Origin: Parabacteroides sp. ZJ-118
Lineage (GTDB): Bacteria; Bacteroidota; Bacteroidia; Bacteroidales; Tannerellaceae
DNA: 40,786 nt
Reading direction: 5' to 3'
NCBI RefSeq assembly: GCF_011038785.1
Contig: NZ_JAAKDT010000032.1
Span: 1-40,786, forward strand
This document shows positions 21,648 through 40,786 of the stretch, piece after piece. Each line of letters begins with the position of its first letter. Position 1 is the first letter of the stretch. Both the position numbers and the translations under genes were made by a program. Below the pieces are notes generated by a model. It saw nothing but the letters and a program-made list of their open reading frames with translations. It ran no database searches and was not told where the DNA came from.

Positions 21648-22044
21648 GGGGATGACCGGTTTTGACAGCGGGTAGAAGTGGTTTGTAAGCATGTAGTGCG
21701 TGGTTGGCTTGCACTTAAATCTCAGACAACGAACAATTAACTGGCGAAAACAATTACGCTCTCGCTGCTTAGTCGAAGTATAGTAGATGGAAGCTTAATC
21801 CCTGCAAAAGTTGCGGGGACGTGACATCACCCGGATGCTGTGGCTCCGAAGCGTTCCGATCAGGTGGTGCAGCAATATCGGAGATAGTTTGAGATAAGCC
21901 TCGGGTCTCAGGCGAAACTTTAGAGGATAAGGGATGAGTGGGTGGCTTCGGTCTTGCTCTTCCCCGACAATGAAGGCGAAGATAAACATGTAGAAAGCAA
22001 ATTAGTTCCTCGTTTGGACGAGAGTTCGAATCTCTCCATCTCCA
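21648..22044 (+). ncRNA. ssrA: Transfer-messenger RNA (tmRNA)
   Basis: tmRNA frees stalled ribosomes and tags the unfinished protein for breakdown. The 5' end GGGGATGACCGG and the 3' end, a T-arm with GTTCGAATC followed by CATCTCC, pair GGGGATG with CATCTCC to form the acceptor stem. The tag frame at 21743-21772 reads GENNYALAA and then TAG, the tag form known in Bacteroidales. The 3' CCA is not encoded (ACG follows), so it is added after transcription. The mature length is about 397 bases plus CCA. Confidence 0.97.
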
Positions 22045-22050
22045 CGGAAT

Positions 22051-35856: not shown

Positions 35857-36624
35857 ATGATTAGTCCATTAGCCTATGTAGATTCAAGCGCGAGGATCGG
35901 GAAGAACGTTATGATTCACCCTTTCGCGTACATTGATAAGAACGTGGAGATCGGGGATGATTGCGAGATCATGCCTCATGCCAGCTTAATGAGCGGTACA
36001 CGCATGGGAAATCGCAACCGTGTATTTAACGGGGCTGTTATCGCCGCTGAGCCTCAGGACTTCTTTTATAAGGGAGGTGATACGATCACCGTAGTCGGGG
36101 ATGACAACGTGATCCGTGAGAATGTGGTGATTAACCGTTCCACGACAGCGGAAGGACGTACTTGTATCGGAAATGGTAATTTCTTGCATGAGGGGGTACA
36201 TGTCTCTCATGATACGCGGATAGGAAGCCATAGTGTATTTGGCTATGGTAGTAAGATTTCCGGAAATTGTATCTTGGAAGATTACGTGATCTTCGGGGGG
36301 AATGTATTGATGAGCCAAGGATCCCGGGTGGGATCTTGGGCAATGATTCAAACCGGCTGTCGTTTCCGTAAGGATATACCTCCTTTTATCGTAGCGGCTC
36401 AAGAGCCTACCACGTACTATGGAGTGAATTCTTTCATCATGTCTCATGAAGGATTCAATGAGAAGGTTATCAAGCATATCAGTCATGCGTACCGGATCAT
36501 TTTCCAAGGAAACAGCAGCCTTACAGATGCCTTGTTGATGATCAAGGATCAGGTTCCGATGAGTGAGGAGATCCAGCATATTATCGATTTCGTTGGTGAG
36601 TCTAAATTAGGTATTATCAAATAA
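35857..36624 (+). CDS. lpxA: Acyl-ACP--UDP-N-acetylglucosamine O-acyltransferase (LpxA)
   Basis: LpxA adds a hydroxyacyl chain to UDP-GlcNAc, the first step of lipid A. The 255-residue product is a left-handed beta-helix of hexapeptide repeats (SARIGKNVMIHP, KNVEIGDDCEIMP, GNGNFLHEGVHVSHD) with the catalytic His118 (HVSHD, equivalent to E. coli His125) and a C-terminal helical domain. It is cytoplasmic. Unusually, it is the last gene of an efflux operon rather than beside lpxD, lpxB or fabZ. Many Bacteroidales carry an lpxC-fabZ-lpxA cluster elsewhere, so this may be a second copy; I cannot test that here. Confidence 0.93.
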   Translation: MISPLAYVDSSARIGKNVMIHPFAYIDKNVEIGDDCEIMPHASLMSGTRMGNRNRVFNGAVIAAEPQDFFYKGGDTITVVGDDNVIRENVVINRSTTAEGRTCIGNGNFLHEGVHVSHDTRIGSHSVFGYGSKISGNCILEDYVIFGGNVLMSQGSRVGSWAMIQTGCRFRKDIPPFIVAAQEPTTYYGVNSFIMSHEGFNEKVIKHISHAYRIIFQGNSSLTDALLMIKDQVPMSEEIQHIIDFVGESKLGIIK

Positions 36625-36682: not shown

Positions 36683-36803
36683 AGGTTCGTCCGGCAGGGG
36701 TATAACCTGTACCCAATTGTTTATCAAAAAACCATATAACAGGGTGGGAAGTTGTGAAAAGCCAAAGATAGTGCTTTTTTTGATGTACTTACGACAAAAG
36801 ATT

Positions 36804-37736
36804 ATGAATAAGAAAAGTTTTATGGAAGGCATGTTGGCGTATATATCTAAGCTACGTGCGGGTGGTTATTATTCCACGGCGAAGAGTTATCAAGATGCGT
36901 TGAACTCGTTCCGGAGGTTTTGCGGCAAGGAGAGGATACCTTACTCTCATATTAACAGGGACACGCTCTCGCGTTACCAGTCCTGGTTGTTGGACAGGGG
37001 ATGTTCCATGAATACGGTGTCCACCTATATGCGCCGGATCCGTCACATCTACAACTTGGCGGTGGAGGCGGGCGAGGCTCCCTATATCCCTCTTTTGTTC
37101 AAGGGGATATTCACGGGCGTGGAGAGCAAGCGTAAGAGGGCGTTGCCCTCGGGAAGTTTGCGCTCGTTGATGGGGACCGCGGAAGTCGAGCCGGAGATGC
37201 GGAGAACCCGGCTGGCCTTTAGCCTGATGTTCGCGTTCAGCGGTATGGCGTTCGTGGATTTCGCTCATTTGAGGAAAGAGAACATCAAGGGCGGGGTCTT
37301 GTCGTACCACCGACAGAAGAGCGGGTCCCTCATCCGGGTGGAGATCCCCGCCGAGGTACGTCACTTGTTGGACGAGCTGGCGGCTTGCACGGACAAGGGG
37401 TCACCTTACCTGTTCCCATTCCTGAGCGGGAAGAAAACGGGCGAGGAGGCCTACGTGGAATACAACAAGGCCCTGTACCGTTTCAACCGCGACTTGAGGT
37501 TGTTGGCGGAGACTTGCGGCGTGGACGAGCCGGTCACCTCTTACACGATCCGCCACTCGTTCGCCACGACCTTGCGGGAACAGGAGGTGCCGATCGACGT
37601 GATCAGCGAGTTGCTGGGGCATACGTCCATCAAGACCACCCAGATCTATTTGAAGAGCTTTTCCTTGGAGCGTCTGTCGGCGGTGAACCGGGCCTGTTTC
37701 GGGAGCGTGTACAAGCCGGTATCCGGGGCTGGGTAA
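36804..37736 (+). CDS. Tyrosine site-specific recombinase, probable capsule promoter invertase
   Basis: The 310-residue product has an N-terminal SAM-like core-binding domain (about 8-95) and a catalytic domain with Lys172 (RQKSG), Arg250-His251 (YTIRHSFAT), His273 (LGHTS) and nucleophile Tyr282. The place of the first catalytic Arg holds Ser146 (FAFSGMAF), as recalled for IntDOT of CTnDOT, and the usual His of HxxR is Tyr247, common in Bacteroides recombinases. The ATG at 36804 is chosen over the open frame from 36717. It ends 6 bases before the left inverted repeat, so it probably flips the promoter segment that follows. Confidence 0.92.
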   Translation: MNKKSFMEGMLAYISKLRAGGYYSTAKSYQDALNSFRRFCGKERIPYSHINRDTLSRYQSWLLDRGCSMNTVSTYMRRIRHIYNLAVEAGEAPYIPLLFKGIFTGVESKRKRALPSGSLRSLMGTAEVEPEMRRTRLAFSLMFAFSGMAFVDFAHLRKENIKGGVLSYHRQKSGSLIRVEIPAEVRHLLDELAACTDKGSPYLFPFLSGKKTGEEAYVEYNKALYRFNRDLRLLAETCGVDEPVTSYTIRHSFATTLREQEVPIDVISELLGHTSIKTTQIYLKSFSLERLSAVNRACFGSVYKPVSGAG

Positions 37737-37742
37737 GCGCTT

Positions 37743-37760
37743 GGCTACTTGGGAAGTAGC
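37743..37760 (+). repeat. Left inverted repeat of the invertible promoter segment
   Basis: GGCTACTTGGGAAGTAGC is the exact reverse complement of 38038-38055. Each copy is also a near-palindrome (GCTACTT/AAGTAGC around GGG), the shape of a tyrosine recombinase core site. Confidence 0.9.
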
Positions 37761-37964
37761 GTAAAGATAGGGAATTTAAATACCCATTTGAGGGGATGAG
37801 ACGGGGCGTGTTCTGTTTCTACACGATGTTCGTGCGATTTTCATGGGGTGACGTGACGATGCAGGAAATAGGAGGTCGTTTCGTCTCTGTTGTCGTGTCC
37901 ATACACCACGAATAGAAACGAAAAATCGGGGAAAAATAAATTCAGAAAACAGACAAAGCCTACA

Positions 37965-37983
37965 CAAGCTTACACAAAGCTTG
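37965..37983. promoter_or_regulatory. Perfect dyad just upstream of the capsule promoter
   Basis: CAAGCTT-ACACA-AAGCTTG, 7 bases before the -33 box. It could bind a regulator or be an accessory recombination site. Confidence 0.4.
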
Positions 37984-37990
37984 AAAAATG

Positions 37991-38021
37991 TTTGTTGTTC
38001 CGGTGCTTTTTACTAAATTTG
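37991..38021 (+). promoter_or_regulatory. Capsule operon promoter, ON orientation
   Basis: TTTG (37991-37994), 19 bases, TAAATTTG (38014-38021): an exact Bacteroidetes promoter inside the invertible segment. Transcription would start near 38028. Confidence 0.85.
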
Positions 38022-38027
38022 CGGCGT

Positions 38028-38197
38028 GAAAGAACAAGCTACTTCCCAAGTAGCCTGCTTTCTTATCTTGAAAAGGAGCATGGATTCAAGTATTGGACCT
38101 TCCTTTTGACAATAGTCAACAAGTGTGTACGAATGTCTCAAAACCGGTCTTGGATTCGGTACCTCCAGAGGGTATCGACGCCGTAGGCGTTGAGAAA
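38028..38197 (+). promoter_or_regulatory. 5' leader of the upxY transcript
   Basis: The predicted leader holds the right inverted repeat, which folds into a GCTACTT/AAGTAGC hairpin, a TTGAC/GTCAA hairpin (38106-38119), and an ACGCC/GGCGT hairpin (38178-38190). In B. fragilis UpxY proteins act on such leaders to prevent early termination. Part of it may be coding (see upxY). Confidence 0.5.
38038..38055 (-). repeat. Right inverted repeat of the invertible promoter segment
   Basis: GCTACTTCCCAAGTAGCC, exact reverse complement of the left repeat at 37743-37760. Confidence 0.9.
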
Positions 38198-38791
38198 ATG
38201 GTTCCGACAATACCTTTCCAAGACAGTAAACCGATGCGTAAGCGTTGGTATATCGCCATCGTCAACAATAAGTCGGAGAAACTTTGCGCCGACAAATTAG
38301 AGAAACGTGTGGCGAGCCAGCCGGAAGGGGAGAAGGATTATGAGGTCTATGTCGCTTCCCAAAAGGAGATGACCCTCACGGCGGCAGGCAAGCGGAAGTG
38401 GGTGGAACGAATCTTGTTCCGCTCCATAGTCTTCATCCGCTGTACCGATACCTTACGTAAAAAGGAGATCGTACGTCTTCCATACATCAAACGTTTCATG
38501 GTGAACATCGCCGGAGAGAGGCAAGGCGGCATACGTCCCGTGGCTTTCATCCCGGACGATCAGATGGCCAAGCTTCGCCGGATGGTGAACGATTCGGACG
38601 AGCCTGTCACGATCGATCCCAGTCCTGTGCCGCTTGGCTCTAAGGTGCGGATCAATGGTGGAACCCTGCGTGGTTTGGAGGGGAACGTGTTGGAATCGCC
38701 GGATGGTGGAACCTGTTTCGTGATTCGCATAGACTTGCTCGGCTGTGCCAAGGTCAGTATTTCCCGGGATTTGCTGGACGTACTACCCTAA
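38093..38791 (+). CDS. upxY: UpxY family transcription antiterminator (NusG-like)
   Basis: UpxY proteins ride with RNA polymerase and let it read through a long capsule operon. The frame gives a NusG N-terminal domain (from MRKRWYIAIVNNKSEK, with RILFRSIVFIRC) and a KOW-type end (GSKVRINGGTLRGLEGNVL). From a TTG at 38093 the product has 232 residues; from the ATG at 38198 it has 197, nearer the usual size. A third possibility: an ATG at 38080 opens MDSSIGPSF and hits TGA, but removing one T from the TTTT at 38104-38107 would join it in frame to DNSQQVCTN of this frame, suggesting a one-base frameshift. The family is firm; the start is not. Confidence 0.88.
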   Translation: MDLPFDNSQQVCTNVSKPVLDSVPPEGIDAVGVEKMVPTIPFQDSKPMRKRWYIAIVNNKSEKLCADKLEKRVASQPEGEKDYEVYVASQKEMTLTAAGKRKWVERILFRSIVFIRCTDTLRKKEIVRLPYIKRFMVNIAGERQGGIRPVAFIPDDQMAKLRRMVNDSDEPVTIDPSPVPLGSKVRINGGTLRGLEGNVLESPDGGTCFVIRIDLLGCAKVSISRDLLDVLP

Positions 38792-38797
38792 ATAGGT

Positions 38798-39217
38798 ATG
38801 AGAACATCTTATAAGAAAGAGGAGGAGCGATCCGGTGTACGCCTGATCGCCCTGCTGGAAAATCATCTACAAGATATTTTGAGTCGTGAGGCGGACAACC
38901 ACACGTTCATCTATCTTTATCGCACGGGTCCGTATTGGGTGGCGTTTGAGAAATCCGCTTACTTTTTACATCGCATATCTTCCCGTGCGCAAGTAATCCC
39001 GATGCGTCCCACCACCTATCCGTTCCCTATCGTGATGGTCGCGTGGGCCGACAAGGAATTGTGGGCTTACAGCCGGACACATCTTTTCCTTCGTGAAGGT
39101 GATGATTATGGCCGACTGTCCGCCCCGTCCCATTCGCTTGAGGGTTATCGGGAATGGCATACGGAAGAAGTGGGAGATTTTTCCGTGCCACAAACACGTT
39201 TTCTGTTGGAGAATTAA
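38798..39217 (+). CDS. upxZ: UpxZ family regulator (inhibitor of other UpxY proteins)
   Basis: The 139-residue product has the UpxZ pattern: a charged N-terminus, then ALLENHLQDILSREADNHTFIYLYRTGPYWVAFEKSAY (quoted in parts: LIALLENHLQDIL, FIYLYRTGPYWVAFE) and PFPIVMVAWADKEL. UpxZ proteins of B. fragilis block the UpxY antiterminators of other capsule loci, so that one capsule is made at a time. It starts 6 bases after upxY and 4 bases before the transferase gene. Confidence 0.92.
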   Translation: MRTSYKKEEERSGVRLIALLENHLQDILSREADNHTFIYLYRTGPYWVAFEKSAYFLHRISSRAQVIPMRPTTYPFPIVMVAWADKELWAYSRTHLFLREGDDYGRLSAPSHSLEGYREWHTEEVGDFSVPQTRFLLEN

Positions 39218-39221
39218 GAAA

Positions 39222-40346
39222 ATGCGAATAATATTGCTTTTATCGTTCAGCTTCTTTCTGTCCATACTGTTCGGTATGGTGATCATCCCGAGGATCCTGG
39301 TGATCTCGCATAAGAAACGCCTGTATGACATCCCGGATTCCCGGAAGGTACATACGACCCCTGTTCCCCGTCTGGGCGGGCTGTCCTTTTTCCCGGTGAT
39401 CCTGATGTCGATGTTCCTGATGGTCGGTTTTCGCCTGTACTTTTGGGATATGGGGTCGTCGAGCCTGTCCTTCCACATGCTTTATGAGTACCTGTTCCTG
39501 TTCGTGGGCATGACGCTGCTTTATCTGGTGGGCGTTTGCGACGACCTGGTGGGTGTGGGCTATCGCCATAAGTTCGTCGTTCAGGTTATTGCGGCGCTGC
39601 TATTGATATTGTCCGGCAATTGGTTCGACTCGTTGGGAGGCTTGTTCGGCGTCTACTCGGTGCCGGCATGGATCGGGATGCCGCTCACGGTGTTTGCCGT
39701 GGTGTATATCACCAACGCCATCAACCTGATCGATGGCATCGACGGGCTGGCCTCGGGGCTTTGTTGCATCGCCTTGTCGGTCTTGAGCGTGATATTCTAT
39801 CTTTGCGGGCAGTATGTCTACGCGTTGCTGGCGATCTGCACGCTGGGTGTCTTGATGCCATTCTGGTGTTACAACGTATTCGGCAACGCCAACCGGGGCC
39901 ATAAGCTATTCATGGGAGACGCCGGCAGCCTCACGCTGGGCTACGTGATCAGTTTCCTGATCATCCACCTGAGCGTGACGAACCAAGTCTCGCCGGAGCT
40001 GCCCAATCCCTATATGGTGATCGCTTTCTCCACGGTGTTGGTACCGTTGCTGGACGTGATCCGGGTGGTCTTGCACCGCCTGCGCGAGCACAAGAACCCT
40101 TTTTTACCGGATAAGAATCATTTCCATCATAAGTTGTTACGCACGGGTATGCGAGTGCGGATGGTGATGGTGACGATCCTGAGCGTATCGGTCTTCTTTA
40201 TAACGTTGAACCTGCTGCTAACCAAGCGTATAAATATCACCTACCTCTTGTTCCTCAACCTCTTCCTGTGGTCTCTACTCCATCTGTCGATCAACAGGCT
40301 TATCACCCGGAACCGTGAGCGGAGGGAGAGGGAGGAAGCGAAGTAA
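39222..40346 (+). CDS. Polyprenyl-phosphate sugar-1-phosphate transferase (WecA/MraY family, GT4-like)
   Basis: This integral membrane enzyme moves a sugar phosphate (probably N-acetylhexosamine-1-phosphate) from UDP onto undecaprenyl phosphate to start the capsule repeat unit. The 374 residues from the ATG at 39222 have about ten helices and the family motifs DIPDSRKVHTTPVPRLGG near 30-47, GVCDDLVGVGYRHKF near 105, NLIDGIDGLASGL near 168, GHKLFMGDAGSLTLG near 226 and KNHFHHKLLRTGMR near 298. The open frame from 39093 overlaps upxZ and is not used. It is the first biosynthetic gene of the locus. The sugar is inferred. Confidence 0.93.
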   Translation: MRIILLLSFSFFLSILFGMVIIPRILVISHKKRLYDIPDSRKVHTTPVPRLGGLSFFPVILMSMFLMVGFRLYFWDMGSSSLSFHMLYEYLFLFVGMTLLYLVGVCDDLVGVGYRHKFVVQVIAALLLILSGNWFDSLGGLFGVYSVPAWIGMPLTVFAVVYITNAINLIDGIDGLASGLCCIALSVLSVIFYLCGQYVYALLAICTLGVLMPFWCYNVFGNANRGHKLFMGDAGSLTLGYVISFLIIHLSVTNQVSPELPNPYMVIAFSTVLVPLLDVIRVVLHRLREHKNPFLPDKNHFHHKLLRTGMRVRMVMVTILSVSVFFITLNLLLTKRINITYLLFLNLFLWSLLHLSINRLITRNRERREREEAK

Positions 40347-40560: not shown

Positions 40561-40786
40561 ATGGAACATTACATACGTTTTGACTGGGCGATGAAGCGCC
40601 TTCTCCGGAATAAGGCGAACCACGCCATACTGGAGGGTTTGATGACCTCTTTGCTGGGAACTCGTTTCAAGATCGTTCGATTCTTGGAGAGCGAGTCGAA
40701 CCAGGAGAGCCCTGAGGATAAGTTCAACCGAGTGGACATCTTGGCCGAGAGCGAGAAGGGAGAGTTGGTCATCTTCGAGATCCAGA
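40561..40786 (+). CDS. Rpn / PD-(D/E)XK nuclease family transposase, 3' end outside the window
   Basis: The first 75 codons are present. They read MEHYIRFDWAMKRLLRNKAN, then a segment with FNRVDILAESEKGELVIFEIQ, where Asp (VDIL) and Glu-x-Gln (FEIQ) form the PD-(D/E)XK nuclease core. Such genes (Rpn/YhgA-like, formerly called putative transposases) help RecA-independent transfer of DNA and are often found in capsule and other variable loci. It is on the same strand as the capsule genes but has its own promoter candidate and repeats before it. Confidence 0.88.
   Translation, partial: MEHYIRFDWAMKRLLRNKANHAILEGLMTSLLGTRFKIVRFLESESNQESPEDKFNRVDILAESEKGELVIFEIQ

Follow-up and report, generated by a model that had tools for sequence, protein, structure and literature searches.

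A putative invertible capsule promoter in Parabacteroides and signs of recombinase gene exchange among related switch loci

Ahead of an upxY-type capsule operon in Parabacteroides sp. ZJ-118, a promoter lies on a short DNA segment that is enclosed by exact inverted repeats and adjoins a tyrosine recombinase gene. This arrangement is very probably an inverton that makes the capsule operon phase variable, captured here in the ON orientation. The type of switch is known; comparison of the locus with its relatives would add a recombinase cassette swap, a rule for the spacers of the recombination sites, and four states at one chromosomal place. The comparison also gives testable rules: which sites are compatible, a reason for separate recombinases, and a route from a switchable to a fixed locus. 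The stretch analyzed (the window; 40,786 nt) corresponds to contig C50 in a draft genome of 3.17 Mb and 125 contigs (herein G000).

The promoter segment and its neighboring genes

The features of the locus are collected in Table 1. The inverted repeats were originally described as perfect over 18 bp, with the recombinase ending 6 bases before the left one, and both statements are exact: the two arms match throughout with 277 nt between them, and the recombinase stop lies at 37736. When a 600-nt region was shuffled 300 times with dinucleotides preserved, exact inverted repeats reached at most 15 nt. The description of each repeat as a near-palindrome (GCTACTT-GGG-AAGTAGC) is likewise correct. 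The term "ORF-free" holds for the segment insofar as no supported gene lies inside it, but two mechanical ORFs (37385-37759 and 37890-38186) do overlap it.

Table 1. Coordinates of the switch and neighboring features in the window
Feature	Position	Strand	Evidence or remark
lpxA, fixed upstream neighbor	35857..36624	+	NF003657 249.4 bits, TIGR01852 232.5 bits, both above cut-off
Putative upstream breakpoint zone of the recombinase cassette	36684..36710		just past the lpxA 3' hairpin
Tyrosine recombinase, 310 aa, likely inverting enzyme	36804..37736	+	PF00589 4.4e-17, 62.8 bits; PF13102 4.5e-17
Left recombination site	37743..37760	+	core GCTAC-TTGGGAA-GTAGC at 37744-37760
Invertible segment, 277 nt, ON orientation	37761..38037	+	313 nt with arms
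-33/-7 promoter	37991..38021	+	TTTG-N19-TAAATTTG
Right recombination site, inverted copy	38038..38055	-	
upxY-type antiterminator gene	38123..38791	+	PF02357 30.4 bits; NF033644 94.5 bits; mechanical ORF 38093-38791
Second operon gene, 139 aa	38798..39217	+	91% nt identity in G005 C109
WecA/MraY-type glycosyltransferase	39093..40346	+	PF00953 120 bits; TIGR02380 160 bits, under cut-off 326

A single promoter reading toward upxY had also been predicted, and the motif, which we take to be the Bacteroidetes -33/-7 element, is found there. On either strand it occurs in 79 of 5000 shuffled segments (1.6%), and alone it is therefore modest evidence. The promoter is convincing because the position of the -7 motif is constant: it begins 22 to 24 nt from one end in all 20 segments from C50, its siblings and relatives (scan of 45 nt from the segment ends). 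A sigma-70 style scan gave nothing relevant (1 site; shuffle mean 1.9), and terminator-like matches were near chance (3; shuffle mean 2.0), one of them being the right core itself. The predicted RNA fold of the segment is dominated by pairing of the two repeats (z -5.8), which is uninformative for a DNA switch. In the ON orientation, the operon mRNA would carry the right site in its 5' leader.

The IRHSFA, LLGH and TTQIYL blocks of the recombinase are invariant in the 24 loci compared, and the second Arg, His and Tyr of the catalytic domain are present. The canonical first catalytic Arg of tyrosine recombinases belongs to a GLR motif; in all 24 recombinases it is absent, with GMAF, GIAF or GMSF instead. 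A similar absence of the first Arg is known for IntDOT, and the domain assignment by PF00589 stands despite it. A PDB search returned only XerA/XerC/XerD/integron-type relatives (6 sequences). Measured from the first base of the stop codon of the recombinase, the core starts at -13 to +13 nt in 24 of 24 loci, and at the six loci of the own genome it lies 2-11 nt from the stop. With a core at most 13 nt away, there is no room for a terminator, and a promoter in the OFF orientation would read antisense into the recombinase gene; such reading could feed back on switching.

Upstream, lpxA marks the orthologous place of this locus in other species (87-94% nucleotide identity at G004 440 kb, G005 C109 and G023 C156). 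Downstream, the first gene narrowly misses the UpxY cut-off of NF033644 (94.5 bits, or 95.1 in a six-frame search, against 100); we call it UpxY-type because NF033644 is the best of the three families matched. Its GTG start at 38123 was chosen because three orthologues have ATG there (by eye). The second operon gene had no match in family profile searches, and the WecA/MraY-type gene more likely starts near 39222 than at the mechanical ORF start. Since the contig ends inside the operon at 40786, most capsule genes are deduced from the orthologous operon at G005 C109, which encodes glycosyltransferases, a pyruvyl transferase and a WecG-family protein. Elsewhere in the window, a tmRNA gene (tag GENNYALAA) occupies 21648-22045.

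Sibling modules, related loci and site anatomy

A recombinase search of the own genome gave 15 matches, six of them at 68-100% identity; all six recombinases (C50 and five siblings) are followed by two paired sites that enclose a promoter segment, and then by a NusG/UpxY-like gene. The original prediction had raised the recurrence of the core elsewhere in the genome, and 12 of the 13 GCTACYNNNNNRGTAGC sites indeed form the six module pairs (reversed control pattern, 2). Three modules are ON (C50, C36 and C52) and three OFF (C44, C70 and C51). The segments of C44 and C36 are 99% identical but inverted, which is comparative evidence that such segments flip, and the orthologous locus C52/G004 4422/G005 C106 takes the ON state in one species and the OFF state in the other two. 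These orientations, together with the UpxY-like downstream gene, support the predicted phase-variable capsule promoter in its ON state as the probable nature of the locus; C50 itself is known from one assembly, ON. Two distant recombinases of the same genome (L038, C36:44463-45332; L039, C66:20348-21217; 34-35% identity) are followed by different inverted repeats of 20 nt and 17 nt, and L038 stands before a gene above the UpxY cut-off.

DNA matches occur in 10 of 38 genomes of the genus, and recombinase matches at E 1e-90 or better in 5 of 123 genomes of the family, all of this genus (own genome included in both counts). In a search for related loci among genome contigs, the only ones confirmed were two distant loci of Bacteroides with 34% identity, which were not used further. 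The loci compared come from G000, G004 (a single contig of 4,811,379 bases), G005 (about 180 contigs) and G023; all except G004 are drafts. Both 17-bp cores are present at 19 of the 24 recombinase loci. The other five are G023 C33 and C129 (contig ends), G005 C109 (single site), G004 4643 (second core 2.9 kb away) and G023 C43 (one changed base in the right arm). The set of 20 segments comprises the 19 and G023 C43, the other four loci being dropped; 6 of these segments are ON and 14 OFF. At G004 4643 (L123, G004:C1:4644126-4647050), the distance between the cores points to what seems to be an insertion within the promoter segment. A remnant at G004 441 kb, short fragments and a module in G018 fall outside the 24 loci.

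Each site has the form GCTAC-N7-GTAGC, with constant arms and a 7-bp spacer that varies between loci. Tyrosine recombinases generally bind the arms of their sites and exchange strands in the spacer, and the probable roles of the parts here follow that pattern. The spacers within a pair are exact reverse complements at 19 of 19 loci with both cores, as they are in the G004 4643 and G018 pairs. Six spacer types are found across the 24 loci (TTGGGAA, TCGGGAA, CTGGCGA, TTGGCGA, TTGGGGA and TTAGTGA), and G018 has a seventh (TTGGTAG).

Several relatives show individual peculiarities. The G018 module (L124, G018:C40:191318-191473) has a 122-nt segment between its cores, apparently ON, and the gene behind it seems, by eye, to encode an HU-type DNA-binding protein. 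At L075 (G004:C1:4423345-4423388), a third core begins 27 bp past the right core, a duplication of the right site. The recombinase at L079 (G005:C87:52932) has a likely 1-bp frameshift near its start, with the promoter ON; this switch may be locked if translation does not begin at a start farther downstream. Several G004 and G005 segments (L073, L074, L080 and others) contain a repeated hairpin element (GAGACGGGGC / GCCCCGTCTC type), which may account for part of their size differences.

Probable mosaic history of the locus and states in other species

The window is 93% identical to G005 C109 up to position -1051 relative to the recombinase stop and 98% identical to the sibling C44 from -1024 to the left site, a part in which C50 and G005 C109 share only 69%. 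From the right site onward, the window again aligns with G005 C109 (86% over 2.1 kb; 91% in the initial 699 aligned nt). At rounding, identity between the recombinases of C50 and C44 is 100%, and the spacers of the two loci differ. Compared part by part, these two loci share 99% in the recombinase, 77% in the segment, 73% upstream and 75% downstream; the last three values are background, because 20 shuffles (of the downstream stretch only) give 70-79%. The nearest relative of the C50 segment is that of G005 C87 (88% over 259 columns; branch support 100/99). AU tests, for which the groups were named after the identities had been seen, rejected C50+C44+C36+C70 on segment data (p 3.6e-4) and C50+G005 C87 on recombinase data (p 1e-30), in agreement with discordance for C50 and G005 C33.

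Further discordant pairs are C50/C36 (recombinase 97%, segment 76%), G005 C33/G004 647 (98% and 82%) and G004 484/G023 C43 (93% and 75%; downstream 74%). Where all parts were measured in pairs that are clearly orthologues or duplicates, the segments are 85-100% identical. As the cassette of C50 resembles that of C44 and its segment, operon and upstream genes do not, the recombinase appears to have been swapped and to have a history other than that of its surroundings. We infer that the recombinase gene and its own upstream region form a replaceable cassette, recently exchanged here for a C44-like copy. G005 C33 is also readable as a cassette swap, since the bases that immediately follow its right core are the same as at G005 C120. 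The possibility that recombinases exchange promoter segments among loci was considered and set aside, a swap of the recombinase cassette alone being simpler for C50.

At one place after lpxA, four species show four states. G000 has a full switch downstream of oep-lpxA. At G005 C109, a different recombinase is followed by a lone core that abuts the right flank, with no promoter. In G004, the remains of a recombinase and of a upxY gene are fused to each other. G023 has, by eye, a sequence resembling a promoter that points toward upxY; its right core is altered, and no recombinase match occurs between lpxA and upxY. The G005 C109 junction is the product that would be expected of core-to-core deletion, although slipped mispairing or an assembly error could also have produced it. 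Taken at the level of sequence, the comparison of relatives suggests that recombinase genes are exchanged between switch loci and that switches are lost in several ways.

Proposed mechanism, alternatives and known systems

We propose that a tyrosine recombinase, either the adjacent one or a sibling copy, would bind the GCTAC and GTAGC arms of both sites and exchange strands within the 7-bp spacer; because the spacers match in inverted alignment, the 277-nt segment would flip. In the ON state, transcription would presumably start from the promoter and read through the right site into upxY, the product of which is expected to antiterminate the operon, with capsule as the likely product. After flipping, the promoter would point leftward and transcribe into the recombinase gene from its 3' end (OFF). 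A broader model, offered tentatively and with more doubt than confidence, treats the recombinase as an exchangeable cassette and the spacer as the private address of the locus. Any family member would recognize the shared arms and could thus drive any switch, and the spacer match would bar recombination between loci. Near-symmetrical spacers such as TTGGGAA could align as direct repeats, losing the promoter and leaving a silent single-site locus like G005 C109; this link between spacer and promoter loss rests on one allele.

That the segment is fixed ON and its repeats are a recent relic would fit the broken states seen at the same place in relatives (G023 with a promoter and no recombinase, G005 with a lone site and no promoter, G004 with the remains of a recombinase joined to upxY), as well as the one orientation known for C50. 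We nevertheless consider it very improbable: the two sites match perfectly along all 18 nt, the reading frame of the recombinase is uninterrupted and almost the same as at C44, and siblings exist in both orientations. Assembly error would explain the mosaic and the single-site allele differently, given that the draft assemblies of G000 and G005 consist of 125 and about 180 contigs and that paralogous modules are hard to assemble. It too is improbable, if less so, as the order lpxA-recombinase-upxY recurs in G005, the G005 junction runs exactly from core to right flank, and the C50 and C44 cassettes differ at 18 of 1024 positions and thus are not one collapsed copy.

Another reading is compatible with the inverton and changes only the enzyme: flipping might be carried out not, or not only, by the neighboring recombinase, with one sibling enzyme serving several loci in trans. 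The binding arms do not vary between loci, and the C50 and C44 recombinases are identical at rounding though their spacers differ. However, an uninterrupted recombinase gene persists at every one of the six loci of the genome, and the core lies 2-11 nt from its stop, an arrangement that suggests action in cis, and we regard service in trans as rather unlikely. Inversion of the promoter segment by a tyrosine recombinase, the adjacent one or a sibling copy, is the reading we carry forward.

As the original prediction recognized, the general phenomenon is known; the passages of PMC12118408 compared describe the repeat, integrase and promoter for capsule operons of P. distasonis, where the APCS2/PD invertible capsule promoters have a 17-bp repeat consensus GCTACTYRGNRAGTAGC. 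Inversion sites in P. distasonis are also reported in the part of PMC5903667 compared, and 14 capsule loci in ATCC 8503 in that of PMC9409006. The repeat GCTACTTGGGAAGTAGC of the window fits the consensus (PMC12118408, same passages). The core, originally thought specific to this locus, is thus of a published kind, and the recombinase pairing, thought specific too, looks interchangeable, because the C50 recombinase is nearly the same as that of C44, whose spacer differs. Titles and abstract starts of the literature searched gave no report of recombinase exchange between such switches, which does not establish its absence from print; nor did the passages compared mention a cassette swap, the spacer rule or the four states.

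According to the same passages of PMC12118408, the P. distasonis switches share with ours the upstream integrase, the promoter between repeats and the NusG/UpxY-like first gene; their region measures 314-345 bp, against 277 nt between the arms (313 with arms) here. The capsule switches of B. thetaiotaomicron and B. xylanisolvens described there also combine a local tyrosine recombinase with a palindromic repeat, but their arms are GTTAC-GTAAC rather than GCTAC-GTAGC; the sequence comparison covers the repeats. In B. fragilis, the passages of PMC5903667 describe the same outcome, invertible capsule promoters, from one master serine recombinase (Mpi) acting on many loci, in contrast to the local tyrosine recombinases here. 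Phase-variable capsules are reported to govern phage sensitivity of gut Bacteroidales (PMC12118408, passages compared). In P. distasonis, repeats accompany 10 of 12 operons, all with NusG-type first genes, and two UpxY operons are without repeats, as given in those passages; here, unlike in that account, a UpxY-type operon carries the switch.
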